Source: a virus
DNA length: 38,097 nt
Strand: one strand, 5' to 3'
Virus record (IMG/VR): IMGVR_UViG_3300048833_000397
Location: 1-38,097 of that record
Shown: piece by piece, positions 1,310 to 37,229 of the stretch
Numbering within the stretch: position 1 is the stretch's first letter
How the letters are laid out: each line of letters begins with the position of its first letter
Made by a program: the position numbers and the translations under genes
Notes under the pieces: generated by a model
Told to the model about the DNA's origin: nothing
The model's database searches: none
The model's input: the letters and a program-made list of their open reading frames with translations, nothing else

Positions 1310-1638
1310 CCGCCATCACCCAGCCGCCCGGGCAGCTCCACCTCCTGCCCCCACCACCGGCGCAGGCGGCGACGTCCTACCGGGTCGTGTCCATGCCGGC
1401 CGACCCGGCCAGCACCCCCCGCTGGTCCGACACGATCCGGGACCTCCCGGTCGCCGCCTCGAGGGCCGCCCGAGCCGCTACCCGTGACGGGCAGGCGTGG
1501 CTCGTCGCCGCGGACTTCTCCGCAATCCACATCACCGCCGCCGGCGAGGTCACCTCGACGTGCGGCCCCCAGCTCTCGGGGTGGGCCGTCCTGGCCGCCC
1601 GAGTCATCACCAACCTCGAAGGGACCCCTCGCCCATGA
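1306..1638 (+). CDS. Hypothetical protein between two ParB-like genes
   Basis: 110 residues from ATG 1306 (ATGA overlap with the upstream stop), ending in a 4-base overlap with the second ParB-like gene. The N-terminus is Pro/Gln-rich (about residues 6-22). The rest is a compact alpha/beta-looking stretch with WSDTIRDLP, DGQAWLVAADFSAIHI and a C-terminal AVLAARVI helix. No membrane segment and no cysteine cluster. Position between the two ParB-like genes suggests co-expression with them, perhaps as a partner. No family recognised. Confidence 0.7.
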   Translation: MTAITQPPGQLHLLPPPPAQAATSYRVVSMPADPASTPRWSDTIRDLPVAASRAARAATRDGQAWLVAADFSAIHITAAGEVTSTCGPQLSGWAVLAARVITNLEGTPRP

Positions 1639-3200
1639 CCACCACCGCCACGGTGCACGAGCTGATCATGCTCGACCACGACCAGCTCCAGCCCCACCCA
1701 GACAACCCGCGCAAGCGGTTCGTCGACATCGCCGAGCTCGCGAAGTCGATCGCCGGCGTCGGGATCCTCGAGCCGCTCCTCGTGCTCCCCCCGAACGACG
1801 ACGGCATCCACCTGATCGTCGCCGGCGAGCGCCGCTGGCGCGCCTCCGCCAAGGCCAACCTCGATGGCCCGTTGCCGTGCGTGGTCCGGACCATGACCCC
1901 CGTCGAGGTCCTTGAGGCGATGCTCACCGAGAACCTCCAGCGCTCCGAGCTCACCCCGATCGAAGAGGCCCGCGCCTACCAGGGGCTGATCGACCTCGAC
2001 GCCACCGTCGCATCGATCGCCAAGAAGGTCGGCCGCTCCCAGCCCCTCGTGAAGTCGAGGCTCGCGCTGCTCGCGCTCCCACCCAAGGTCCTGGCCCTCG
2101 TCGAGACCGGCGACCTCACCCTCGGCACCGCCGACGAGCTCCTCGCCTACGCCGCCGACGACGACGCCATGGCCTGGTTCGCCAAGGCCCTCGCCGACGG
2201 CGAGATCCTCTTCAAGCCGGCAGGGCAGGTCGGCTCCTACATCGCCCGTCGCGACCGTGATCGCGAGGTCGAAGCGATGCGCACCCAACTCGCCGACAAG
2301 GGCCTCACCGAGTACGTCCCCAACGACAGCTACTGGTCTCCGCCCTACGAGCTGACCACCCGGGGCCCGTGCAAGCTCACCCAGCTCGGCTTCACCGCGG
2401 CAGCCCACGCCAAGGAGCCCTGCCACGCCGTGTGGCTCGAGGGCACGCGCTACGTGCACCACAAGCTGACCAAGGTCCCGCTGTGCCTCAAGCCCGGCCG
2501 CCACACCCCCACGGCGAAGCCCGCCGACCGATCCGACCTCCAGCTCGACGACGCCAAGGCCAAGAGCCTCAAGAAGGCCAAGGCCCCCGGTGTCTCGGCC
2601 GAGGAGAAGGCCCGCCAGAAGCACGAGCAGCAGCTGAAGGAGATCCGCACCGAGTTCGTGGCCAAGCTCCTCGCCGGCCCCGGCAAGGTCCCGTTCGAGC
2701 TCCCACCGATCGTCGACACGATCCTGCTGGCTCGGCCGAGCTACGAGGTGATCAAGGTCGCCGTGGCCATGGTCGGCATCGACGTCGCCAAGCTCAAGGA
2801 CACCGGCGGCGTGAACCCGGAGTGGAACGCCTGGTTCGACTTCTGCGACATCCCCCGCAACCGCGCCCGTGCCGTCGCCGCGGTCGTCCTGGCCCAGGCC
2901 GAGCACAGCTTCGCCTACGAGCCGTCGAGCTTCGACGGCATCACCGACCCCGACTACCTCGAGCTGCTCGTCGCCCACGGCTACCAGCTCTCGTCCCTCG
3001 AGGAGAAGGTCCTCGTCGACGCCGAACGCCTCGACCCGCCCGAGCCGGCCCCCGCGCCAGCGCCGACCGACGCCCAGGTCGAGCTCGCCGAGCTGACCGC
3101 CCTCTCGGCCGACATGAACGACGGCCCCGAGCTCGACCAGGTGAACGCCCGCATCGCCGAGCTCATGGGCACCCCCACCGCCGACGACGAGGAGGGGTGA
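1635..3200 (+). CDS. ParB/RepB/Spo0J family DNA-binding protein
   Basis: 521 residues. All classic ParB N-terminal boxes are present: HPDNPRKRF at about 21-29, AGERRWRAS at 63-71 (the CTP-binding box) and TENLQRSELTPIEEA at 98-112. A helix-turn-helix follows (DATVASIAKKVGRSQPLVK, about 122-140). The long C-terminal part (about 200-521) is unusual. It carries dispersed Cys/His, a Lys-rich helical linker around 300-335 (KAKSLKKAKAPGVSAEEKARQKHEQQ) and an acidic tail with Pro-Ala repeats. Many plasmid and phage ParB proteins spread on DNA from a parS site; no ParA ATPase is nearby. The role could be regulation of transcription, DNA condensation or plasmid-like maintenance. Translation is coupled: ATG 1635 overlaps the previous stop, and its own TGA shares one base with the next ATG. 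Confidence 0.88.
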   Translation: MTTTATVHELIMLDHDQLQPHPDNPRKRFVDIAELAKSIAGVGILEPLLVLPPNDDGIHLIVAGERRWRASAKANLDGPLPCVVRTMTPVEVLEAMLTENLQRSELTPIEEARAYQGLIDLDATVASIAKKVGRSQPLVKSRLALLALPPKVLALVETGDLTLGTADELLAYAADDDAMAWFAKALADGEILFKPAGQVGSYIARRDRDREVEAMRTQLADKGLTEYVPNDSYWSPPYELTTRGPCKLTQLGFTAAAHAKEPCHAVWLEGTRYVHHKLTKVPLCLKPGRHTPTAKPADRSDLQLDDAKAKSLKKAKAPGVSAEEKARQKHEQQLKEIRTEFVAKLLAGPGKVPFELPPIVDTILLARPSYEVIKVAVAMVGIDVAKLKDTGGVNPEWNAWFDFCDIPRNRARAVAAVVLAQAEHSFAYEPSSFDGITDPDYLELLVAHGYQLSSLEEKVLVDAERLDPPEPAPAPAPTDAQVELAELTALSADMNDGPELDQVNARIAELMGTPTADDEEG

Positions 3201-4315: not shown

Positions 4316-4947
4316 CCGCCACCGTGTCGACCGCCACCGACGAGCTGATCGCCGCCCACGAGCACCTGGTGCCCATCACCGTGCGCCGCCGCTACATGTC
4401 GCTGCTCTCGCCCCGGTACTCGTTCGAGGACGCATGCCAGGAAGGCTGGATCGGTCTCCGTCACGCTGCGCTGACCCACGACCCCGACGTGTGCACCTTC
4501 CAGTCGCATGCGATCAACCGGATCCGCAAGGCGGTCGTGCGAGGTGCTGGCCGGGTCGAGGGCATCGACTCCCGGCGAGGGCGCCCGCGCAAGGTCCTCT
4601 CGCTCGATGAGCTCGTCGTCGCGCACGCAGCGTCTGACCGCCAGACCCTCGGGGCCCGGATCCCTGACCCGGGCCCCGGGCCCGACACCGCCGCCCTCGA
4701 CCGCGCCGGCCTCACGGCTGCCGTCGACGCCGCCCGAGCGTCGGTCGATGACCTGATCGACCTGGTCGTCCTCGACTGGCTCCTGAACCTCGACGACACC
4801 CGAACCCAGGTCGGCTCGCACGAGGGGCCCTTCTGGCGCGACCTCACGCGTGGAGACTCGTGGCAGGTCTGCGATCGCCATCGTCGCCAGTACGAGACGG
4901 CAGACGATGAGTACGGCCCCTTCGAGTGGGTCGAGGTCGACGCCTGA
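4312..4947 (+). CDS. Sigma-70 region 2-like protein
   Basis: 211 residues from GTG 4312. Residues about 35-75 match sigma-70 region 2: FEDACQEGWIGLRHAALTHD followed by FQSHAINRIRKAVVR, paralleling the family pattern D-L-x-Q-E-G-x-I-G-L ... F-x-T-Y-A-x-x-x-I-R-x-A-I-x-R. That region binds the beta-prime clamp helices and reads the -10 element. The second half has helices (AAVDAARASVDDLIDLVVLDWLLNL) but no recognisable region 4 helix-turn-helix, so -35 recognition is not evident. It could redirect host RNA polymerase to phage promoters with a partner, or act as an anti-host factor. The presence of a WhiB in the same operon is suggestive. Its stop shares one base with the next ATG. Confidence 0.72.
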   Translation: MTATVSTATDELIAAHEHLVPITVRRRYMSLLSPRYSFEDACQEGWIGLRHAALTHDPDVCTFQSHAINRIRKAVVRGAGRVEGIDSRRGRPRKVLSLDELVVAHAASDRQTLGARIPDPGPGPDTAALDRAGLTAAVDAARASVDDLIDLVVLDWLLNLDDTRTQVGSHEGPFWRDLTRGDSWQVCDRHRRQYETADDEYGPFEWVEVDA

Positions 4948-6041
4948 TGCCTTGGTTCAAGATCTCCGACGACTGGCTCGACCACCCGAAGGTGCAGCGG
5001 GCCGGGAAGAACGGCCGGGCCTTGTGGGTCGCGGTCGGGAACCGGTGTGCGAAGTACTCCTCGGACGGGTGGATCGAGGGCGACCTCCTCAAGGGCATCG
5101 CCGCGCTCGCCGAGGTCCCGCTCGGACCCACGGCGCGCAAGCTCGTCGAGCTCGGCCTGTGGCACGACGCCGAGACGCTCAAGCGGTGCGAGCCGTGCCT
5201 GCGTGACATCGAGGCGATCAACGCCCACCGCCGCACCGACGGCGACCCGCTGCTGCGCCTGGCCGCCGGCGACTACTACAGCCACGACTGGGCGGCCCAT
5301 CAGCTCTCGAAGCACCGCACGGCGTCCGTGGAGGCCCGCATGGCCGAGGACCGGTCCCGGTCGCTGCGCAAGGACCCGAACCTGTGCCAGGACATCCAGG
5401 CCCGTGACCGTGGCCGCTGCCGCTACTGCGGCCGCCGCGTGAACTGGAAGGACCGGCGCGGGCCGGCGCGCGCCACCTACGACCACATCGACCCGTTCTG
5501 CTTCGCGCCGAACGGCGGGAACTTCCTCGAGGGCGTCGTCGTCGCGTGCGGGCCGTGCAACAGCGACAAGGGGCAGCGCACCGCCACCGAGTGGGAAACC
5601 GAGGGCGGCCCCACGCTCAAGCCCCCGGGATGGTCCCCCGAGGACCCCGAGCCGCCCACCGAGCCGTCCGCCGGCGCGCCGCCCGGACCTGACCCGGAAC
5701 CTGACCCGGAACCTGGCTCCGGACCTAGCCCCGATCTAATCCCACCCCCCGGTTTTTCTGACTCTGGACCTAGCTCTCCTCACGGGCACGGGCGGCCGGA
5801 CGCGCCACTCGGGCCGGGTCGGGTTGGGCCAGGTTCCGGGCCAGGTTCCGGGTCAGGTCCGGGCGGGCTCGGGCTGGCCGGGGCCGGTCCGGGTTGGGCG
5901 GGGCTGGTCCGATCCGGGTTGGGCGGGGCTGGGACGGGAGCCTCGCCGCCCACCGACGTGAGTGCTGCCGATGCCGTGGTCGGTGCTGATGAAGATCCCG
6001 CTACCGACGTGACCGAGGAGTTCCACCATGGCGCTGCATGA
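4947..6041 (+). CDS. Replication-initiator-like protein with HNH domain and Gly/Pro-rich tail
   Basis: 364 residues. Residues 1-75 (MPWFKISDDWLDHPKVQRAG...ALWVAVGNRC...DGWIEGDLL) resemble the winged-helix N-terminus of phage replication organisers. Residues about 150-215 form an HNH nuclease: CRYCGRRVNW, then YDHIDPF (the D-H pair), GGNFLEGVVVACGPCNSDKG (the Asn and the second Cys pair, zinc-ribbon type). From about 225 to 345 the protein is a low-complexity Pro/Glu then Gly/Pro tail, encoded by DNA that holds short tandem repeats and a 39-bp inverted repeat. The combination of initiator-like head, nuclease and repeat DNA in the gene resembles phages whose origin lies inside the initiator gene. 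The initiator assignment is inference; the HNH is well supported. Confidence 0.7.
   Translation: MPWFKISDDWLDHPKVQRAGKNGRALWVAVGNRCAKYSSDGWIEGDLLKGIAALAEVPLGPTARKLVELGLWHDAETLKRCEPCLRDIEAINAHRRTDGDPLLRLAAGDYYSHDWAAHQLSKHRTASVEARMAEDRSRSLRKDPNLCQDIQARDRGRCRYCGRRVNWKDRRGPARATYDHIDPFCFAPNGGNFLEGVVVACGPCNSDKGQRTATEWETEGGPTLKPPGWSPEDPEPPTEPSAGAPPGPDPEPDPEPGSGPSPDLIPPPGFSDSGPSSPHGHGRPDAPLGPGRVGPGSGPGSGSGPGGLGLAGAGPGWAGLVRSGLGGAGTGASPPTDVSAADAVVGADEDPATDVTEEFHHGAA
5681..5864. repeat. 39-bp inverted repeat with tandem iterons (candidate origin)
   Basis: The left arm 5681-5719 and the right arm 5826-5864 are inverted copies matching at 37 of 39 positions, separated by 106 bp. Each arm carries two tandem copies of a 12-base unit (left: cctgacccggaa; right: its complement with one change). 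The spacer holds the least GC-rich stretch nearby (gatctaat, ggtttttctg) and a near-repeat of 13 bases (ctccggacctagc at 5717, ctctggacctagc at 5762). The strand composition flips from C-rich to G-rich across the spacer. All of this lies inside the coding sequence of the initiator-like protein. The structure is seen directly; the origin role is inferred. Confidence 0.55.
5889..5932 (+). repeat. 19-bp direct repeat, two copies
   Basis: The 19-base unit ccgggttgggcggggctgg occurs at 5889-5907 and 5914-5932, a 25-base period, just right of the inverted repeat. It encodes part of the Gly/Trp-rich tail (GWAGLV, LGGAGT). It may be simple low-complexity drift or part of the same iteron array. Confidence 0.8.
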
Positions 6042-12761: not shown

Positions 12762-13715
12762 GTGGCCAATGACTTCATCAAGGCCGAGCAGGTCGTCGCC
12801 CAGATGCTGGGCGTGCTCGAGCGCGACACCGTCCTCGCCCAGTTCACCTGGCGTGACCTCGGCGCCGATCGCTTCAAGGGCGCGAAGAACGACACCGTCA
12901 CCCTGCGGGTGCCGGCGTTCGTCGAGGCCCGCACCCGGGTGATGCGCGGCGGTCAGCCGATCGTCATCGACGGGCTGACGGAGACCTCGGTCGACGTCAA
13001 GCTCGACACCCACGTGTACAAGGCGATCGGGGTCTCCGACGAGGAGATGACCCTCGACATCGTCAACTTCGGTGAGCAGGTCACCGCCCCCGCCATGGGC
13101 GGCGTCGTCCGCAAGGTCGACGCCCTCGTCGGGGCCGAGATGGCCGGCGCCTCCCCGGAGGTCGAGGTCGCCCTCGACGAGGACGACCCGTACCTCGGCC
13201 TGGTCGACGCCCGCCTGGCGCTGAACAACCACAGCGTGCCCGCCTCGCAGCGGTTCCTGGCCGTCGGGTCCAACGTCGAGGGCGCCATCCTCAAGTCGGA
13301 CCGCCTCTCGAAGTTCGACACCTCGGGCACGAGCGAGGCGCTCCGCGAGGCCATCATCGGTCGCATCGCCGGCTTCACCGCCGTCAGCGCGATCGGCCTC
13401 GACCCCGACGTGGCGATCGCTGCGCACCAGACGGCGTTCCCGCTCGCCCTGGTGGCCCCCGACGTCCCGAACGGCGCCTCGTGGGGCGAGAAGCGCACCT
13501 ACCGCGGCCTCCAGCTGCGCACGCTGCGCGACTACGCCCCGGACGGCGAGGACGGCCCGACCGACCGCCTCCTCACCGACACCTTCATGGGCGTGGGCAC
13601 CACCCTCGACCGTGGCGTGATCGACGAGGAGACCGGTCGCTTCACGGCGTCCGAGGACGGCAAGGACGACCCGATCCTCGTGCGGGCCGTCAAGCTCACC
13701 CTCGGCGGCAGCTGA
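12762..13715 (+). CDS. Major capsid protein
   Basis: 317 residues from GTG 12762 with a perfect AGGAGG 5 bases upstream, consistent with very high expression. Sequence features fit the HK97-fold coat proteins of actinophages, P22-coat-like subgroup: NDTVTLRVPAF, the RGGQPIVIDGLTETSVDVKLDTHVYKAIGVSDEE beta stretch, then long helices (TAPAMGGVVRKVDALVGAEMAG) and a C-terminal GLQLRTLRDY strand. Position between scaffold and head-tail adaptor supports it. It is the most plausible target of the modification genes downstream, alongside the tail tube. Confidence 0.92.
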   Translation: MANDFIKAEQVVAQMLGVLERDTVLAQFTWRDLGADRFKGAKNDTVTLRVPAFVEARTRVMRGGQPIVIDGLTETSVDVKLDTHVYKAIGVSDEEMTLDIVNFGEQVTAPAMGGVVRKVDALVGAEMAGASPEVEVALDEDDPYLGLVDARLALNNHSVPASQRFLAVGSNVEGAILKSDRLSKFDTSGTSEALREAIIGRIAGFTAVSAIGLDPDVAIAAHQTAFPLALVAPDVPNGASWGEKRTYRGLQLRTLRDYAPDGEDGPTDRLLTDTFMGVGTTLDRGVIDEETGRFTASEDGKDDPILVRAVKLTLGGS

Positions 13716-13722
13716 CCCTGCC

Positions 13723-14166
13723 GTGAGCCTGGACGCGCTCGCCTCCCCATCGGAGCTCGGCACCTACCTGGGTGTCGTCATCGATGCGGAGGATGCGCGC
13801 GCCCTGCTGTTGCTCCGAGCCGCCTCGGGTCTGGTCCGCGATGCCGCGGGCCAGACCTGGGACGGCTCGGGCGACGTGGTGCCCGACACGGCGTGGTCGG
13901 TCACCCTGGCCTGCGCTGCGCGGGCGTGGGAGAACCCGACGGCCAAGACCGACCAGGCCGAGGGCCCGTTCCGTGACGGCTGGGACTCCGGTGCAGCGGG
14001 CCTGGTGCTCCTCGAGCACGAGACCGCCACCCTGGGCCGGCTCCGTGACGGCGCTGGCCCGCTCTCGGTGCTCTCGTTCACCCGGGGCCCGCTCGAGACC
14101 CCGGCCGTCGTCGACGACTACGCCCTCGACTCCGTCGAAGAGCGGGCACCCTGGGAGCTGATGTGA
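13723..14166 (+). CDS. Head-to-tail adaptor (gp6-like connector)
   Basis: 147 residues from GTG 13723, 7 bases after the capsid stop. Starts with LASPSELGTYLGVVIDAEDARALLLLRAASGLVRDAAGQTW, the usual opening of HK97 gp6/gp15-type connector proteins, followed by a helix ending in ARAWENP. The ring it forms sits under the portal. Its stop overlaps the first gene of the glycosyltransferase cassette by 4 bases, so the cassette is translated together with head genes. Confidence 0.82.
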   Translation: MSLDALASPSELGTYLGVVIDAEDARALLLLRAASGLVRDAAGQTWDGSGDVVPDTAWSVTLACAARAWENPTAKTDQAEGPFRDGWDSGAAGLVLLEHETATLGRLRDGAGPLSVLSFTRGPLETPAVVDDYALDSVEERAPWELM

Positions 14167-14792
14167 CGATCGACGCCATCCCGCGCATCGTGCACCACAT
14201 CTGGGTGGGGCCTGCGATGCCCGAGCGTCTCGTGCCCTACGTCGAGTCCTGGGAGCGGCTGCACCCGACGTGGGAGCACCGGATGTGGACGGAGTTCGAC
14301 TGGCTCGAGAACCAGGAGATCTTCGATCGGGCCGAGGTGATCACCCCGCACGTCGGGCAGCTGCGCTCTGATCTGGCCCGCTACGAGATCCTCTACCGCC
14401 ACGGTGGCGTGTACGTCGATTGCGACCTCGAGGCGCTTCGTCCGATCGACGAGCTCTGCGGCGTGGACGGGTTCGCCGGGTGGGAGGTGGACGGGGTCTG
14501 GGTGAACAACGCGATCGTCGGTGTGGTGCCTGGGCATCCGCTGATGCGAGCGCTGATCGATGAGGCGCCGGCGTCGATCCGTCGTCATCGGCGCGAGCGC
14601 CCGAACAAGATGACCGGGCCCGGGCTCGTGACCCCGCTGGCCAAGCGCTACGGCATCACCCTGCACCCGTCGGCGACGTTCTACCCGTACTCGCACGGCG
14701 AGCTCGACCGGATCGGCGGCGACTACGGCGACGCGTTCACGGCCCACCACTGGGACAACATGCGCAAGCGGAAGGGGCTCGTCGATGCCTGA
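14163..14792 (+). CDS. Glycosyltransferase with DXD motif (GT32-like)
   Basis: 209 residues from GTG 14163 (GTGA overlap with the connector stop). It opens with IPRIVHHIWVGPAMPE and carries RSDLARYEILYRHGGVYVDCDLEAL, the signature of the Och1/capsular-sugar transferase family, with the metal-binding D-C-D at 86-88. Enzymes of this family transfer a hexose from a nucleotide-sugar to a glycan or protein acceptor. No signal peptide or membrane segment, so it acts in the cytoplasm. Coupled to connector genes and three further modification genes, it probably decorates virion proteins; modification of host surface glycans is the alternative. Confidence 0.88.
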   Translation: MTIDAIPRIVHHIWVGPAMPERLVPYVESWERLHPTWEHRMWTEFDWLENQEIFDRAEVITPHVGQLRSDLARYEILYRHGGVYVDCDLEALRPIDELCGVDGFAGWEVDGVWVNNAIVGVVPGHPLMRALIDEAPASIRRHRRERPNKMTGPGLVTPLAKRYGITLHPSATFYPYSHGELDRIGGDYGDAFTAHHWDNMRKRKGLVDA

Positions 14793-15450
14793 GGTCGTGA
14801 CGATCGACGCGTTCGACCGGTCGTACCGGATCACGAACCCGGGTGCGGGCCGGGTCGGGTCGAAGCTGGCGCTCGGCGAGCCGTACGAGCGCAAGCTCCT
14901 CGTCGACGCCCACCAGCAGGGCCTGTCTGGGACGGCGTTCGATGTCGGGGCGCACATCGGGAACCACTCGCTGTACCTGGCGGCGATCTGCGGGCTGACG
15001 GTCCACGCTTGGGAGCCCCACGACGAGTCCCGTGCTCAGCTCGAAGCGAACCTGGTCCTCAACCCTGAGCTGGACGTGACCGTGCACTCGTGGGCGGCGG
15101 GCGACCGGTCGACGCGCGGTCGGTTCACGAGCGGGATGTGGCTGGAGTTCGACCCGACCCGTGAGGGCGACAAGCTGACCATCGACCGCGGTGGGGTCCC
15201 TGTCGAACGGATCGACGACCAGCTCGACGTCGACGACCTCGTGCTGATGAAGATCGACGTCGAGGGCATGGAAGCCGACGTGATCGCCGGGGCGATCGGC
15301 CACATCGATCGGTGCCGGCCGGTTATCTACAGCGAGACCCACACCGAGGCCTCGCACGACTCGGTCGCCCGGTTGCTCGAGCCGCTCGGCTACCGGATGG
15401 ACCGGGCGATCCACATGGGATCGGTGATGGAGAGGTGGCGCTGCCGATGA
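14785..15450 (+). CDS. FkbM-family methyltransferase
   Basis: 221 residues from ATG 14785, overlapping the glycosyltransferase by 8 bases. The SAM-binding motif I is FDVGAHIGNHSLYLA (52-66), the acidic residue after the next strand is in AWEPHDES (76-83), and the family signature LMKIDVEGMEADVIAGA lies at 154-170. FkbM enzymes O-methylate hydroxyls, often on sugars. With the flanking glycosyltransferases, capping of a glycan by methylation is the natural guess. It overlaps the next methyltransferase by 4 bases. Confidence 0.9.
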   Translation: MPEVVTIDAFDRSYRITNPGAGRVGSKLALGEPYERKLLVDAHQQGLSGTAFDVGAHIGNHSLYLAAICGLTVHAWEPHDESRAQLEANLVLNPELDVTVHSWAAGDRSTRGRFTSGMWLEFDPTREGDKLTIDRGGVPVERIDDQLDVDDLVLMKIDVEGMEADVIAGAIGHIDRCRPVIYSETHTEASHDSVARLLEPLGYRMDRAIHMGSVMERWRCR

Positions 15451-16007
15451 GACCTGAGGACCTGTCTGGGCTGATCGATGCCGACCAGGGCGACGTGCTG
15501 CGTGCGCTGGCTGCTGCGGTGCCGGCGGAGCTGGCGATCGTGGAGATCGGCTCGTTCCGTGGGAAGTCGACGGCGTTCCTCGCCGCCGGGGCGAAGGCCG
15601 GTGCCGGCGCCCGGGTGTGGGCGGTGGATCCGTGGGACCTGCCCGGCAACCCCTACGGCAAGCACGGGTTCTCGGCTCCGCAGGTGCGCGAGCAGTTCGA
15701 GGAGCAGATCCGGGCGTGCCGGCTGTGGTCGAGGGTGACGCCGGTGCGTGCGTTCTCGGCCGACGCTGCCGCCGCGTGGGACGGCCCGGCCGTCGGGTTG
15801 CTGTTCATCGACGGCGACCACGAGGAGGCGGCGGTGCGCGCCGATGTCGCAGCGTGGACCCCGCGTCTCGCTGCCGAGCACGTGCTCGTGTTCGACGACC
15901 TCGACACCAGGCGCAACCCTGGGGTGCGCACGGTGGTCGACGAGCTGGCCGACCGGTACGTGGTGGAGAAGGTCGCAGTCCGGTTCGGAGTGGCGAGGCC
16001 ATGGTGA
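15447..16007 (+). CDS. Class I SAM-dependent methyltransferase (Methyltransf_24 type)
   Basis: 186 residues from ATG 15447. Motif I IVEIGSFRGKSTAFLA (31-46), the acidic WAVDPW (58-63), and LLFIDGDHEEAAVRADVAAW (118-137) with the D-G-D-H signature define a short Methyltransf_24-like enzyme, often found in glycan and small-molecule biosynthesis clusters. A final HVLVFDDLDTRRNPGV stretch fits the family. It lies between FkbM and the second glycosyltransferase and overlaps the latter by 7 bases. The acceptor is unknown. Confidence 0.85.
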   Translation: MRPEDLSGLIDADQGDVLRALAAAVPAELAIVEIGSFRGKSTAFLAAGAKAGAGARVWAVDPWDLPGNPYGKHGFSAPQVREQFEEQIRACRLWSRVTPVRAFSADAAAAWDGPAVGLLFIDGDHEEAAVRADVAAWTPRLAAEHVLVFDDLDTRRNPGVRTVVDELADRYVVEKVAVRFGVARPW

Positions 16008-16705
16008 TCAGCCTGTCCGCTGCGGTCATGGCGCACCCGTCCCGGGCCGACCTCGTGGAGGACCTGCTCGGCCGTCTGGATCAGCCGGTCCCGGTGGTGT
16101 GGGATCAGGTCAACGACCGCCACGACACCGGGGTGCGGGCGCTCGCAGCGTTCGATCCGGCGGCGACGCACCACCTGGTCCTTCAAGACGACGTGCTGCC
16201 CTGCCGGGACCTGCTCGCATCGATCACCGCTGCGCTCGCCCACGTCCCTGAGGGTCACCCGGCCAGCTTCTACCTGGGACGGGTGAAGCCGTTCCGGCGT
16301 GCGGTCGAGCGGGCCGTGTCGGTGGCGGACGGCTCGGTGTCGTGGTTGACGTTCCAAGGGCCGATGTGGGGGCCGGCGATCGTGGTGCCCACCGCCGAGA
16401 TCCCCGGGCTCGTCGACTGGTGGTCGACGCCTCGAGCACGCCGGGTCCAGAACTACGACCGGCGGGTGGCGACGTGGTTCGACCGGCGGCACTGCTGGTA
16501 CTCGTGGCCGTCGCTGGTCGATCACCGAGGTGATCAGTCGCTGGTGACGGGCCACACCGCGATCCGCACCGCCCACCGGGTGGTGCCCGCTGAGGCTTCG
16601 GGCCTCGAGGTCGACTGGTCAGGGACGGTGCTGCCGTTGCGACGAGCCCACGAGCTCGATCGACAGCGCCAGGCAGCCGCCCGCCGAGCAGGCGTGGGCA
16701 GATGA
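16001..16705 (+). CDS. Putative glycosyltransferase (GT-A fold, GT25/GT2-like)
   Basis: 234 residues from ATG 16001. The N-terminus SLSAAVMAHPSRADLVEDLL and the HHLVLQDDVLPCRDLL segment (about 57-72) resemble glycosyltransferases that use an acidic LxDD motif to bind nucleotide-sugar. A FYLGRVKPFRRAV stretch and WSWPSLVDHRGDQSLV follow, comparable to the acceptor part of GT25-like proteins. Two ends of the four-gene cassette are thus glycosyltransferases with two methyltransferases between. Family assignment is weaker than for the first. Confidence 0.65.
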   Translation: MVISLSAAVMAHPSRADLVEDLLGRLDQPVPVVWDQVNDRHDTGVRALAAFDPAATHHLVLQDDVLPCRDLLASITAALAHVPEGHPASFYLGRVKPFRRAVERAVSVADGSVSWLTFQGPMWGPAIVVPTAEIPGLVDWWSTPRARRVQNYDRRVATWFDRRHCWYSWPSLVDHRGDQSLVTGHTAIRTAHRVVPAEASGLEVDWSGTVLPLRRAHELDRQRQAAARRAGVGR

Positions 16706-16721: not shown

Positions 16722-17039
16722 ATGTTCGATCTCGCGGTGTACCGGCCCGGCGCCCGGGACGAGTTCGGTGACCGCTCCGGGTCCCCGGTGCTGGTCGGCA
16801 CGTTGCGGAACTGCAAGGTGGCGCCGGCCGGGCTCGGTTCCGCTGAGCAGCGCGAGCCGTCGGTGGTCGGTGCTGATCCGGTGCGCCATGCGCTCGACGT
16901 GTTCTGCTCGGATCCGGAGGCGGACGTCGAGCACAGCGACCGGATCGTGCACCGTGGTGAGACGTTCCGGGTCGTCGGAGAGATCGACCGGTGGGGCCGG
17001 TCGGGGTGCGTGATCCATCTGGCCCGGGAGGCTGGCTGA
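16722..17039 (+). CDS. Head closure/stopper protein
   Basis: 105 residues from ATG 16722 with GGGGAGGTG 6 bases upstream. Beta-rich small protein (MFDLAVYRPGARDEFGDR, VVHRGETFRVVGEIDRWG) in the position of the head-tail stopper (SPP1 gp16 / HK97-type connector). Resumes the connector module after the modification cassette. Its stop shares one base with the next ATG. Assignment rests on size, predicted strand pattern and order. Confidence 0.7.
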   Translation: MFDLAVYRPGARDEFGDRSGSPVLVGTLRNCKVAPAGLGSAEQREPSVVGADPVRHALDVFCSDPEADVEHSDRIVHRGETFRVVGEIDRWGRSGCVIHLAREAG

Positions 17040-17335
17040 TGGCCCGGAACTTCAAGCCGGACCACAAGGGCCTCGAGGAGGTCCTGCTTTCGGCACGGGT
17101 CGCTGCGCTGGTCCAGGCGGAGGCCGACGGGATCGCTCAGGACCTGCGGGCGGCGTACCCGGATGCGCCGATCGTGGTCGATGCCTACGAGTACCGGCCG
17201 CGCCGGTTCCCTCGTGGGCGGCGTGCCGCCCGGTCGGTGACGTTCGCCCGTGCTGATGGTGAGGCCCTCCAGGCCCGGGACGGGATCATGACGAGGGCCG
17301 CTGCGGCCCGGGGCCTCGAGGTCACGGAGCGATGA
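17039..17335 (+). CDS. Neck/tail-joining protein (HK97 gp10-like)
   Basis: 98 residues. Starts MARNFKPDHKGLEEVLLSARVAALVQAEADGIAQDL, the long helix seen in small minor tail/neck proteins, followed by a basic Arg-rich loop and a final helix. It overlaps the next gene by 4 bases (ATGA). It lies between stopper and tail terminator, which is the usual place of gp10-like proteins. Confidence 0.68.
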   Translation: MARNFKPDHKGLEEVLLSARVAALVQAEADGIAQDLRAAYPDAPIVVDAYEYRPRRFPRGRRAARSVTFARADGEALQARDGIMTRAAAARGLEVTER

Positions 17336-17751
17336 AGGTCGCGGTCAACTACCCGGATCCGGAGCACCTGCTGGTGCCGGTCCTGGCCGAGCTGCTAGAC
17401 GAGCACGGCGTAGAGGCGTCGTGCGGTGTCGGTCGCCCCGATGGGTGGACACCGGCTGATGGTCTCCACGTCGAGGTGGCGTGGGACGGGACCCCCGAGA
17501 TCCGGCACCCGCTCGTGGCGTGGCCGACGGTGCGCATCGTGGTCCACGGGCCCGCCGATCAGCCGACCCTCGTGAAGGAGCTCGCGCTGCTGTGCCTCGG
17601 CGTGCTGCCCTCGCAGACCACGGTGGCGGTTCGTCCGCTCACCGGTGTCGGCCGCCCGGTCGCTGACCCTGATCGCCCCGAGGTGTACCTCGCCGCGTTC
17701 ACGTGCCGGGTCACCACCCGCGCCACCGCTCTCGAGCCGTCCGGCTCCTGA
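17332..17751 (+). CDS. Tail terminator/completion protein
   Basis: 139 residues from ATG 17332. Mixed alpha/beta: LVPVLAELLDEHGVEA, VRIVVHGPADQPTLVKELALLCLGVL, and a C-terminal AAFTCRVTTRATAL strand. Size and position directly before the major tail protein match tail terminators such as lambda gpU, which cap the tail tube and join it to the head. Followed by a 73-base gap with the strong ribosome site of the tail tube gene. Confidence 0.72.
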   Translation: MKVAVNYPDPEHLLVPVLAELLDEHGVEASCGVGRPDGWTPADGLHVEVAWDGTPEIRHPLVAWPTVRIVVHGPADQPTLVKELALLCLGVLPSQTTVAVRPLTGVGRPVADPDRPEVYLAAFTCRVTTRATALEPSGS

Positions 17752-17824: not shown

Positions 17825-18343
17825 ATGGCTGGTGACATCGACAACACCTCCGTGTGGGACGACGCCGACGTCTTCGTCTCGTTCGACCTGGAGGCCACCC
17901 TGCCCACCGACGCCGACGACGAGTTCGGCGTCGCCTGGGAGCGCATCGGGTTCCTCGACGGTGCCGCCGGCTTCGTCGACACCCTCAACCAGTCCACGAA
18001 GTACTACAGCGTCTGGGGCGCCGGCGCGATCAAGCAGTCGGTCAAGGTGAACGAGCGCACCGTGGCGTTCACCGCCCACGAGCGCAACGAGACCACCGAC
18101 CGCCTCGCCCGCCCGGGCAAGGTGCCGGTGCTGCTCGCGCTCGAGACCCGGGAGAACGATCGGGTGTACCGCCGGATCTCCCGCCTGCCGGCGAACGTGA
18201 TGCGCAACGGTGCCATCACCGACGCCGAGGAGACCCTGACTGCCATCCCGCTGATGGCGTTCGTCGTCCCCGACACCGACATCGATGTCGAGGTCGCCGA
18301 CCAGTACTTCATCGAGCAGGACTCGGCTGCCACCGGCAGCTGA
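17825..18343 (+). CDS. Major tail protein (tail tube)
   Basis: 172 residues from ATG 17825 with AAGGAGG 7 bases upstream, one of the strongest ribosome sites in the window. Beta-rich composition with DADVFVSFDLEATLPTD, GFLDGAAGFVDTLNQSTKYYSVWGAGAIKQSVK and FTAHERNETTDRLARPG matches siphovirus tube proteins of actinophages. It polymerises into the tail tube. A strong hairpin lies directly downstream, which would make its message abundant relative to the tail chaperones. Confidence 0.9.
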   Translation: MAGDIDNTSVWDDADVFVSFDLEATLPTDADDEFGVAWERIGFLDGAAGFVDTLNQSTKYYSVWGAGAIKQSVKVNERTVAFTAHERNETTDRLARPGKVPVLLALETRENDRVYRRISRLPANVMRNGAITDAEETLTAIPLMAFVVPDTDIDVEVADQYFIEQDSAATGS

Positions 18344-35650: not shown

Positions 35651-36126
35651 CCACCACCCCCACCGTGCAGGCCGTGGCGCACCCGTCGCCGGCGACGATC
35701 GCCGCCCACCTCGCCGCCGCTCACCGCAACACCGGCATCACCGTCGACGACATCGCCGCCGCGACCCCCGCCGAGCTCATCGCCTGGCACGAGGTCGACC
35801 ACCGGCTCTGCTCGCCGGGCTTCCTGGGTCACACCCACACCGCCGACCACAAGGCCCCGGCGATCGTGCACACCGACCCCGACCGGCGGATCCACGCCGA
35901 CATCCTCAAGACGATCGCCGCCGGCGGCACCGTCCCCGGCCTCGAAGCGATCCTTCAGCGCGCCGCCGCAGCGTCGGCCCGGCGCGCCGCCGCTCGCCAC
36001 AACGCCGACGGCACCCGCAACCCGGGTGCCGGCCGCCTCTCCCAGCCCGACCTCGACGCCCTCGAGATCGCCAAGGCCGTCGCCGACCGCGCCGCCCACC
36101 GCTCACGCAAGGGGAGGGCCGCCTGA
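35647..36126 (+). CDS. Hypothetical His-rich helical protein
   Basis: 159 residues from ATG 35647. Contains AWHEVDHRLCSPGFLGHTHTADHKAPAIVHTD, a cluster of seven His that may bind metal, and Arg/Ala-rich helices (LQRAAAASARRAAARHNADG, KAVADRAAHRSRKGRAA). Stop shares a base with the DUF5131 start. No family recognised. Confidence 0.62.
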   Translation: MTTTPTVQAVAHPSPATIAAHLAAAHRNTGITVDDIAAATPAELIAWHEVDHRLCSPGFLGHTHTADHKAPAIVHTDPDRRIHADILKTIAAGGTVPGLEAILQRAAAASARRAAARHNADGTRNPGAGRLSQPDLDALEIAKAVADRAAHRSRKGRAA

Positions 36127-37229
36127 TGGGCACGAAGATCGAATGGGCCGACGAGACCTGGAACCCCGTGATCGGGTGCTCGAAGATCTCCGAGGGCTGC
36201 GTCCACTGCTACGCGATCGGCACCGTGCACCGGGGCCTCGTGATCCAGCACCGCGGCGTCACCACCCACACCCCCGATGCCGGCACCGACTGGACCGGGG
36301 CGATCAACCTGGCGCCGGAGGCGAAGCTCCTCGAGCCGCTCCGCAAGACCAAGCCGGTCCGGTACTTCGTCAACTCGCTGTCGGACCTGTTCCACCCGAA
36401 CCTCCCGGCCGAGGAGATCGCCCGGGTGTTCGCCGTCATGGCCCTCGCCCAGCAGCACACCTTCCAGGTTCTGACCAAGCGGCCGCAGCGCATGGCCGAG
36501 CTGCTGTGTGAGGCGAGCTTCCGCACGCTCGTGGCGCTGAAGATCGAAGCACGCATCGGTGACGCTGCCTACGAGGTGGAGAACGCCATCGCTTGGCCGC
36601 TGCCGAACGTCTGGCTGGGCACGTCGATCGAGCTCGACAAGTACTCGTGGCGAGCGAACCACCTCCGAGCGACGCCGGCCGCTGTGCGGTTCATCTCGGC
36701 CGAGCCGCTGCTCGGGCCGCTCCCGTCGCTCGACCTGACCGACATCGACTGGCTGATCGTCGGCGGCGAGTCCGGGCCAGGCGCCCGACCCATGCACCCC
36801 GACTGGGTGCGAGAGCTGCGCGACCGGGCGACTGGCGACCAGTGCCGGGAGCACCCGTGCGCAGGTCGATGCATCGGCTGCGCCGCCGACTCCGAGTCGG
36901 CGTGCACCCCTCCGTGCCGATGCGACGAGGGCCAGGACTGCTCGGCCTCCACCGCTGCGATGGCCCTGTGGACGAGGTTCTTCTTCAAGCAGTGGGGCGC
37001 CTGGCTCCCGTTCGAGCTCGATGCGCAGGCCCCGTTCTGGAACGGCCAGCACCCAGACCATCAGCTCGTCGACGGCCACAGCTTCCCGGTCGAGATCGAG
37101 GGTCACCCCGCCTGGTCGGTCGACTTCACCGGTAGCGAGCCGATGGTGTGGCGCCGCCTCCCGAAGGCCGAGACCGGGCGCGAGCTCGACGGGCGCACGT
37201 GGGACGAGTTCCCGGTGGGGCGGTCCTGA
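36126..37229 (+). CDS. DUF5131 (phage Gp37/Gp68 family) protein with Cys-rich insert
   Basis: 367 residues. The family opening TKIEWADETWNPVIGCSKISEGCVHCYA is present with Cys 18, 25 and 28 (C-x6-C-x2-C), a probable metal or Fe-S site. Further family signs are RYFVNSLSDLFHPNLP, VLTKRPQRM, NVWLGTSIE, RFISAEPLLGPL, WLIVGGESGPGARPMHPDWVRELRD and FFFKQWGAW. Between the last two lies an insert of about 45 residues with eight Cys (240-272), not usual for the family. The family resembles radical SAM or spore photoproduct-lyase-like folds, but its role is unknown. It is common in actinophages. Confidence 0.9.
   Translation: MGTKIEWADETWNPVIGCSKISEGCVHCYAIGTVHRGLVIQHRGVTTHTPDAGTDWTGAINLAPEAKLLEPLRKTKPVRYFVNSLSDLFHPNLPAEEIARVFAVMALAQQHTFQVLTKRPQRMAELLCEASFRTLVALKIEARIGDAAYEVENAIAWPLPNVWLGTSIELDKYSWRANHLRATPAAVRFISAEPLLGPLPSLDLTDIDWLIVGGESGPGARPMHPDWVRELRDRATGDQCREHPCAGRCIGCAADSESACTPPCRCDEGQDCSASTAAMALWTRFFFKQWGAWLPFELDAQAPFWNGQHPDHQLVDGHSFPVEIEGHPAWSVDFTGSEPMVWRRLPKAETGRELDGRTWDEFPVGRS

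Follow-up and report, generated by a model that had tools for sequence, protein, structure and literature searches.

Glycosylation of the virion has been documented in a few cultured mycobacteriophages, for which the glycosyltransferases Che8 gp110 and Corndog gp38 are reported to be essential for capsid glycosylation (PMC12363180), capsid and tail-tube proteins to be the targets of such enzymes (PMC11600133) and the glycans to be located at the C-termini of these proteins (PMC12619734). Catdawg and other cluster O phages were reported to carry a methyltransferase beside glycosyltransferases inside their head genes (PMC11600133), and in Corndog and Catdawg an O-methyltransferase and three glycosyltransferases are found between the genes for portal and capsid protease. 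The DNA analysed here (the window) is an IMG/VR record of an uncultured virus, 38,097 bases in length, which holds within its head-tail connector genes a cassette encoding a GT32-type glycosyltransferase, an FkbM-family methyltransferase, a Methyltransf_24-family methyltransferase and a second glycosyltransferase of GT-A fold. Based on sequence and on comparison with related phages we suggest, at a probability of roughly three in four, that this cassette is a variable virion-glycosylation module which acts on exposed C-terminal serines and includes two sugar O-methyltransferases. What is new is a two-methyltransferase cassette residing in a hypervariable connector hot spot and coupled to a C-terminal serine rule, by which virion glycosylation would become predictable from sequence, the chemistry being a proposal.

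The window shares with cluster O the phrog_854-family glycosyltransferases and a methyltransferase, encoded by overlapping genes inside the head operon, as well as serine-ended capsid and tail-tube proteins (..GS/..DS), and for cluster O virion glycosylation is reported (PMC12363180, PMC11600133). However, the cluster O genes occupy the portal-protease site instead of the adaptor-stopper site, include one methyltransferase instead of two, and a search of a Catdawg stretch revealed neither GT32 nor FkbM genes. In Che8 (cluster F1), gp110 is homologous to the fourth cassette protein and both capsid and tail tube end in serine, but gp108-gp110 are located at the far right genome end, outside the head operon. 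The Actinoplanes phage phiAsp2 encodes with pas33-pas35 a glycosyltransferase, a Methyltransf_24-containing protein and a phrog_854 enzyme, all translationally coupled; here the genes follow the tail genes and the annotated capsid protein ends ..CCP.

Within the window, where all features given here lie on the plus strand, the head-tail adaptor Ad1 gene (13723..14166; phrog_137, 3e-13) is followed by the GT32-type gene (P0001, 209 residues; 14163..14792), which starts with GTG and overlaps the adaptor stop by the four bases GTGA. An 8-base overlap joins it to the FkbM gene (221 residues; 14785..15450), an ATGA 4-base overlap joins the latter to the gene for the Methyltransf_24-family S-adenosylmethionine (SAM) O-methyltransferase (P0003, 186 residues; 15447..16007), and a 7-base overlap leads to the last gene (P0004, 234 residues; 16001..16705), which is separated by 16 bases from the gene for the stopper or head closure protein Hc1 (16722..17039; phrog_501, 2e-5). 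The cassette had been proposed by an earlier sequence-only reading; its coordinates and family naming stand, as do its placement between adaptor and stopper with 4- to 8-base overlaps and its GTGA coupling (14163 vs 14166), given the open reading frames and Pfam and PHROG matches above threshold. Its guanine-plus-cytosine fraction of 0.698 (flanks: 0.713 and 0.709) is that of the rest of the phage, and a pattern search of the cassette for an internal promoter or terminator gave no match.

The family assignments of the first three enzymes are clear: PF04488 matches P0001 with 51 bits (cut-off 23; 2e-13), PF05050 and TIGR01444 (fkbM_fam) match the FkbM protein with 56 bits (cut-off 22.7; 7e-15) and 85 bits (cut-off 37.7; 7e-24), and PF13578 matches P0003 with 75.5 bits (cut-off 26.3; 7e-21). 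By inspection, the catalytic motifs are intact, namely the DxD motif of P0001 (as YVDCDLE), DVGAHIGNH and KIDVEGME in the FkbM protein, VEIGSFRGKS and FIDGDH in P0003, and a QDD motif in P0004. Identities to relatives amount to 37% (Phrappuccino), 47% (locus L021) and 55% (L094) for the GT32 enzyme, to 70% (L094) for the FkbM protein, and to 47% (L005) and 66% (L094) for P0003, for which the Protein Data Bank entry 6g7d (2.5e-7) was the only solved relative matched. We take 6g7d to be MeT1 of Mycobacterium hassiacum, a mannoside (mycobacterial sugar) 1-O-methyltransferase. MeT1 is described in PMC9883506, which does not print the code 6g7d. The PHROG and RefSeq label of DNA methyltransferase on the Methyltransf_24 protein is without motif support, as inspection of P0003 revealed neither a DPPY-like nor a PC catalytic motif. 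The same public label on the Methyltransf_24 proteins of other glycosylation islands (Fionnbharth gp95, phiAsp2 pas34, phrog_2675) looks wrong as well, since they resemble O-methyltransferases.

P0004, without a Pfam match, is matched by phrog_854 (glucosyltransferase) over residues 5-193 (4e-31) and aligns with phiAsp2 pas35 (39%), Catdawg gp36 and Che8 gp110 (31%, 3e-14). It shares with them a DD motif as well as WPSLVDH, or a sequence very similar to it, and across 39 sequences of the family D63 and D64 are invariant. An AlphaFold2 model calculated with 38 uncultured relatives adopts a confident GT-A fold (predicted local distance difference test score 93.5), for which the best solved Foldseek matches include POMGnT1, a collagen galactosyltransferase, the capsid glycosyltransferase of PBCV-1 and R655 of mimivirus, the best viral match being mycobacteriophage Ardmore gp87 (4e-16). 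Enzymes that glycosylate proteins are thus among its structural neighbours. By sequence homology, P0004 is placed in the family of the mycobacteriophage virion glycosyltransferases Che8 gp110 and Corndog gp38. The cassette encodes four soluble enzymes and not a Gtr-type set of flippase, polyprenyl-phosphate transferase and integral membrane transferase; a membrane segment was found in none of its proteins (highest 19-residue hydropathy at most 1.6). A PADLOC search with the four proteins gave no match, so that a defence system is not indicated.

For comparison with other phages, capsid relatives were fetched and their gene order was read from automatic gene calls, the glycosyltransferase status being partly curated by eye; for a sample of the island genes, the family names are backed by Pfam matches. 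Alignments served as queries because single-protein scans of viral contigs found little (P0004, no match; P0001, one locus). Searches for phrog_854 used own profiles, and the phrog_854 profile matched in six cultured phages. The closest capsid relatives fetched (L005-L011, L024 and L025; 59-80% capsid identity) all carry islands within the adaptor/stopper/neck stretch, and the islands differ in their enzymes and slightly in their insertion points. In L005 (capsid about 79%), a Methyltransf_24 gene and a putative glycosyltransferase gene, the second one without Pfam match and named by resemblance only, follow adaptor and stopper and precede the neck gene, a position which is taken by five glycosyltransferase-like genes in L007 and L009 (73 and 72%) and by GT4, Glyco_transf_7C-like and GT32 genes in L010 (66%). 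In L006 (74%) the adaptor gene is followed by GT2-like and TOD1-like genes and a further reading frame, and in L011 (59%) by GT4, a second transferase and GT32. A GT4 gene is present in L013, L069, L071, L074 and L076, L047 possesses the order capsid, GT32, FkbM, phrog_854, adaptor, and long islands with GT2-like genes directly follow the capsid gene in L050 (8988-12964) and L090 (6912-13300). The L090 island includes a fucosyltransferase-like frame (RGGLGNQLFQYA) and that of L050 a methyltransferase-like frame; the respective capsids end TVT and TVS. In Attoomi, which has no island, and in most other relatives, the stopper gene directly follows the adaptor gene. The adaptor/stopper/neck stretch is therefore a hot spot for glycosyltransferase islands, and the presence and absence of islands among syntenic phages, a check proposed along with the cassette, backs the reading as a virion-glycosylation module.

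The closest counterpart was identified in the IMG/VR loci L094-L096, in which the four genes of the window occur in the same order within the adaptor/stopper/neck stretch, with protein identities of 55, 70, 66 and 59%, and in which capsid, tail terminator (L094: ANSGS) and tail tube likewise end in serine. In contrast, the surrounding proteins are only 41% (capsid), 35% (adaptor), 43% (neck), 41% (terminator) and 38% (tail tube) identical to those of the window, and the cassette directly precedes the neck gene, with room for a stopper gene between cassette and adaptor. As the cassette is more alike than the proteins around it, its four genes both travel and persist together. Among 79 uncultured phrog_854 loci, Methyltransf_24 was found within about 3.5 kilobases (kb) in 40, GT32 in 31 and FkbM in 16, so that these enzyme families travel together.

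A link between these islands and the C-termini of virion proteins was noticed in L005-L020 and was then tested on further loci. The window capsid protein (major head protein, P22-coat-like; 12762..13715; phrog_283, 2e-43) ends LTLGGS, with the serine codon at 13710-13712, and the major tail (tube) protein (17825..18343), assigned by its position after the tail terminator and by homology to the tail-tube candidates of L007, L009 and L010, ends SAATGS; both are proposed acceptors. The tail terminator (17332..17751; phrog_6485, 9e-7) ends EPSGS and is a possible third one, while portal, adaptor, stopper, neck and tape measure proteins of the window do not end in serine. Among 62 capsid relatives, deduplicated at 90% identity, a final serine or threonine is found in 21/22 island carriers as compared to 12/40 non-carriers (p=3e-7). 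The contrast is retained for the held-out loci (14/14 vs 10/33, p=6e-6), without the clade of the window (14/14 vs 12/40, p=3e-6) and when only those non-carriers are counted for which 5 kb or more of sequence is available downstream (21/22 vs 8/25). The narrower motif form [GAST]S (19/22 vs 4/40) was picked after the data had been seen and is left out of the tests. Tail-tube proteins end in serine in 8/10 carriers and 6/34 non-carriers (p=6e-4), and both proteins do so in 10/12 carriers and 3/34 non-carriers, the three exceptions being contigs of 3.8-7.4 kb; non-carriers known only from fragments may have transferase genes at another site, like Che8. No link with islands was found for portal, adaptor, MuF-like and terminase (TerL) proteins, of which 32/356 end in serine or threonine overall. 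The capsids of the cultured phrog_854 carriers Che8, Catdawg, Beakin, Fryberger and phiGD20-1 end ..GS, and those of their tail-tube proteins that were examined end in serine (capsid and tail tube: NKTGS and YSDGS in Che8, PLVGS and IKGDS in Catdawg); Douge, TM4, Bxb1, Giles and Attoomi are without phrog_854 and their capsids end otherwise. In L010, the capsid and tail-tube candidates both end Ser-Ala (FPSA and IESA), as if an acceptor tag had changed in both together.

Several findings limit this link. Both traits form clusters on the capsid tree, along which they change 9 and 11 times, and after correction for the tree only 6-9 independent well-supported contrasts are left, of which about 2-5 show serine together with an island and essentially none the reverse, so that the median p does not fall below about 0.06. 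The 12/40 non-carrier capsids with a serine or threonine end count in the same direction, as do phiAsp2, with its annotated capsid end ..GCCP, and L166, L169 and L171, whose tail-tube candidates end ..VGP. Fionnbharth (L174, L182) is a further exception: it combines a capsid ending ..GSGS with a Methyltransf_24 protein, gp95, but searches with two profiles (phrog_854 and GT2) revealed no glycosyltransferase. The capsid of TM4, which belongs to the same subfamily as Fionnbharth, ends APAA.

For the exposure of the capsid C-terminus, the sole solved relative is Douge gp8 (8zdh; 36% identity). The Douge capsid and tail-tube proteins possess C-terminal immunoglobulin (Ig)-like domains which project outward (PMC13033339), and the window capsid protein ends about where the Ig-like domain in 8zdh begins, its model showing a short strand near the end, after which the last three residues form a free tail. 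From the outward domain of Douge and this model, the C-terminal serine would probably be located on the outside of the particle.

The suggested mechanism assumes that the module is expressed with the head operon and uses nucleotide sugars and SAM of the host as substrates. The phrog_854 enzyme (16001-16705) would transfer a first sugar onto serine, the GT32 enzyme would extend it, and the FkbM and Methyltransf_24 enzymes would cap the product by methylation of sugar hydroxyls. The result would be a short glycan, O-linked and O-methylated, at the C-terminal serine of both the major capsid protein and the tail tube, perhaps also of the tail terminator. Acceptor residue, order of steps, glycan and advantage are all deduced here from the enzyme families and the comparisons. 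Priming would not be unique to phrog_854 enzymes, as islands without phrog_854 (e.g., the lone GT4 gene of L074) also go with serine ends. A methyl-capped glycan made by two methyltransferases had been put forward by the sequence-only reading as an extension of known systems, and it stays a proposal here; a methyltransferase beside glycosyltransferases in head genes is not new in itself, as it was already known from Catdawg and cluster O. Since related phages keep the C-terminal serine but swap the enzymes, even close relatives probably differ in their coats, in the manner of surface serotypes, and as environmental phages rarely meet antibodies, its advantage is probably shielding or an altered sticking to cells or debris.

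Glycosyltransferases acting on surface glycans of the host are widespread among phages and FkbM and GT32 enzymes are frequent in polysaccharide loci, hence it may be asked whether the cassette modifies the host envelope, with receptor masking, superinfection exclusion or lysogenic conversion as outcome, and leaves the virion unmodified. This alternative, named already in the sequence-only reading, is disfavoured and appears clearly unlikely, as the cassette proteins are without membrane segment and the cassette without flippase or polyprenyl-phosphate enzyme, no integrase was found among the genes scanned, and the overlapping genes without promoter of their own reside in a late head operon and go with particular capsid and tail-tube ends. 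The first choice of that reading, glycosylation of the virion, is supported by the homology of P0004, by the syntenic presence and absence of islands and by the serine link of capsid and tail tube. Far less probable still is a hypermodification of phage DNA by a glucosyltransferase and a DNA methyltransferase; it would be in line with the PHROG labels of these names and with the DNA label borne by Fionnbharth gp95 and phiAsp2 pas34, but Methyltransf_24 is a small-molecule O-methyltransferase type with 6g7d as only solved match, the motifs looked for in P0003 are absent, no base-hydroxymethylating enzyme was found among the genes scanned, and the position in the head operon argues against it as well.

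A glycosylated virion may also carry its glycans on other residues or proteins, the C-terminal serine then being inherited with the lineage without serving as acceptor. A sign test on independent pairs, which was not significant, and the serine or threonine ends of non-carriers are compatible with this, yet the same ending recurs within a single phage in two or three proteins that are unrelated to each other, the odd ..SA ending occurs in both L010 proteins, cultured phages with unrelated capsids show the serine ending, and PMC12619734 puts the glycans at C-termini. We therefore regard this explanation as unlikely and prefer glycosylation of the C-terminal serines. Within one clade of uncultured phages, virion glycosylation thus appears to be widespread, encoded by islands of changing composition whose position is kept, as is the C-terminal serine of the putative acceptor proteins. 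Going further, a portable C-terminal tag (a small residue and serine) on capsid, tail-tube and sometimes tail-terminator proteins might serve as acceptor for interchangeable glycan cassettes that turn over at the hot spot by the capsid gene, a tentative generalization to which we give slightly less than an even chance. If true, many uncultured tailed phages would possess genetically switchable glycan coats that can be read from the last residues of two proteins.

Enlarged capsids (about 378-410 residues, with an inserted or C-terminal domain) were found in 1/22 carriers as compared to 20/40 non-carriers (including L012, L018, L029, L035, L038 and L039), a contrast which is confounded by one large non-carrier clade and in which the sole carrier, L025, probably has an over-extended start. 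Glycan and extra capsid domain may be alternative surface decorations.

With regard to the remainder of the window, the stopper gene is followed by that of the neck protein (17039..17335; phrog_8079, 7e-14). No tRNA genes were found in the window, a plasmid search gave no match, and a genome scan with the capsid alignment, meant to identify the host via prophages, revealed no relatives. Upstream of the head genes, the window encodes a ParB-like partition protein (1497-3200; phrog_6218, 2e-51). The product of a further gene there (4926-6041) has matches to families of replication initiation and of HNH endonucleases. Near the opposite end, a DUF5131/phrog_2045 protein (36126-37229; 1e-83) also matches the PADLOC candidate defence models PDC-M41B and PDC-M30B.

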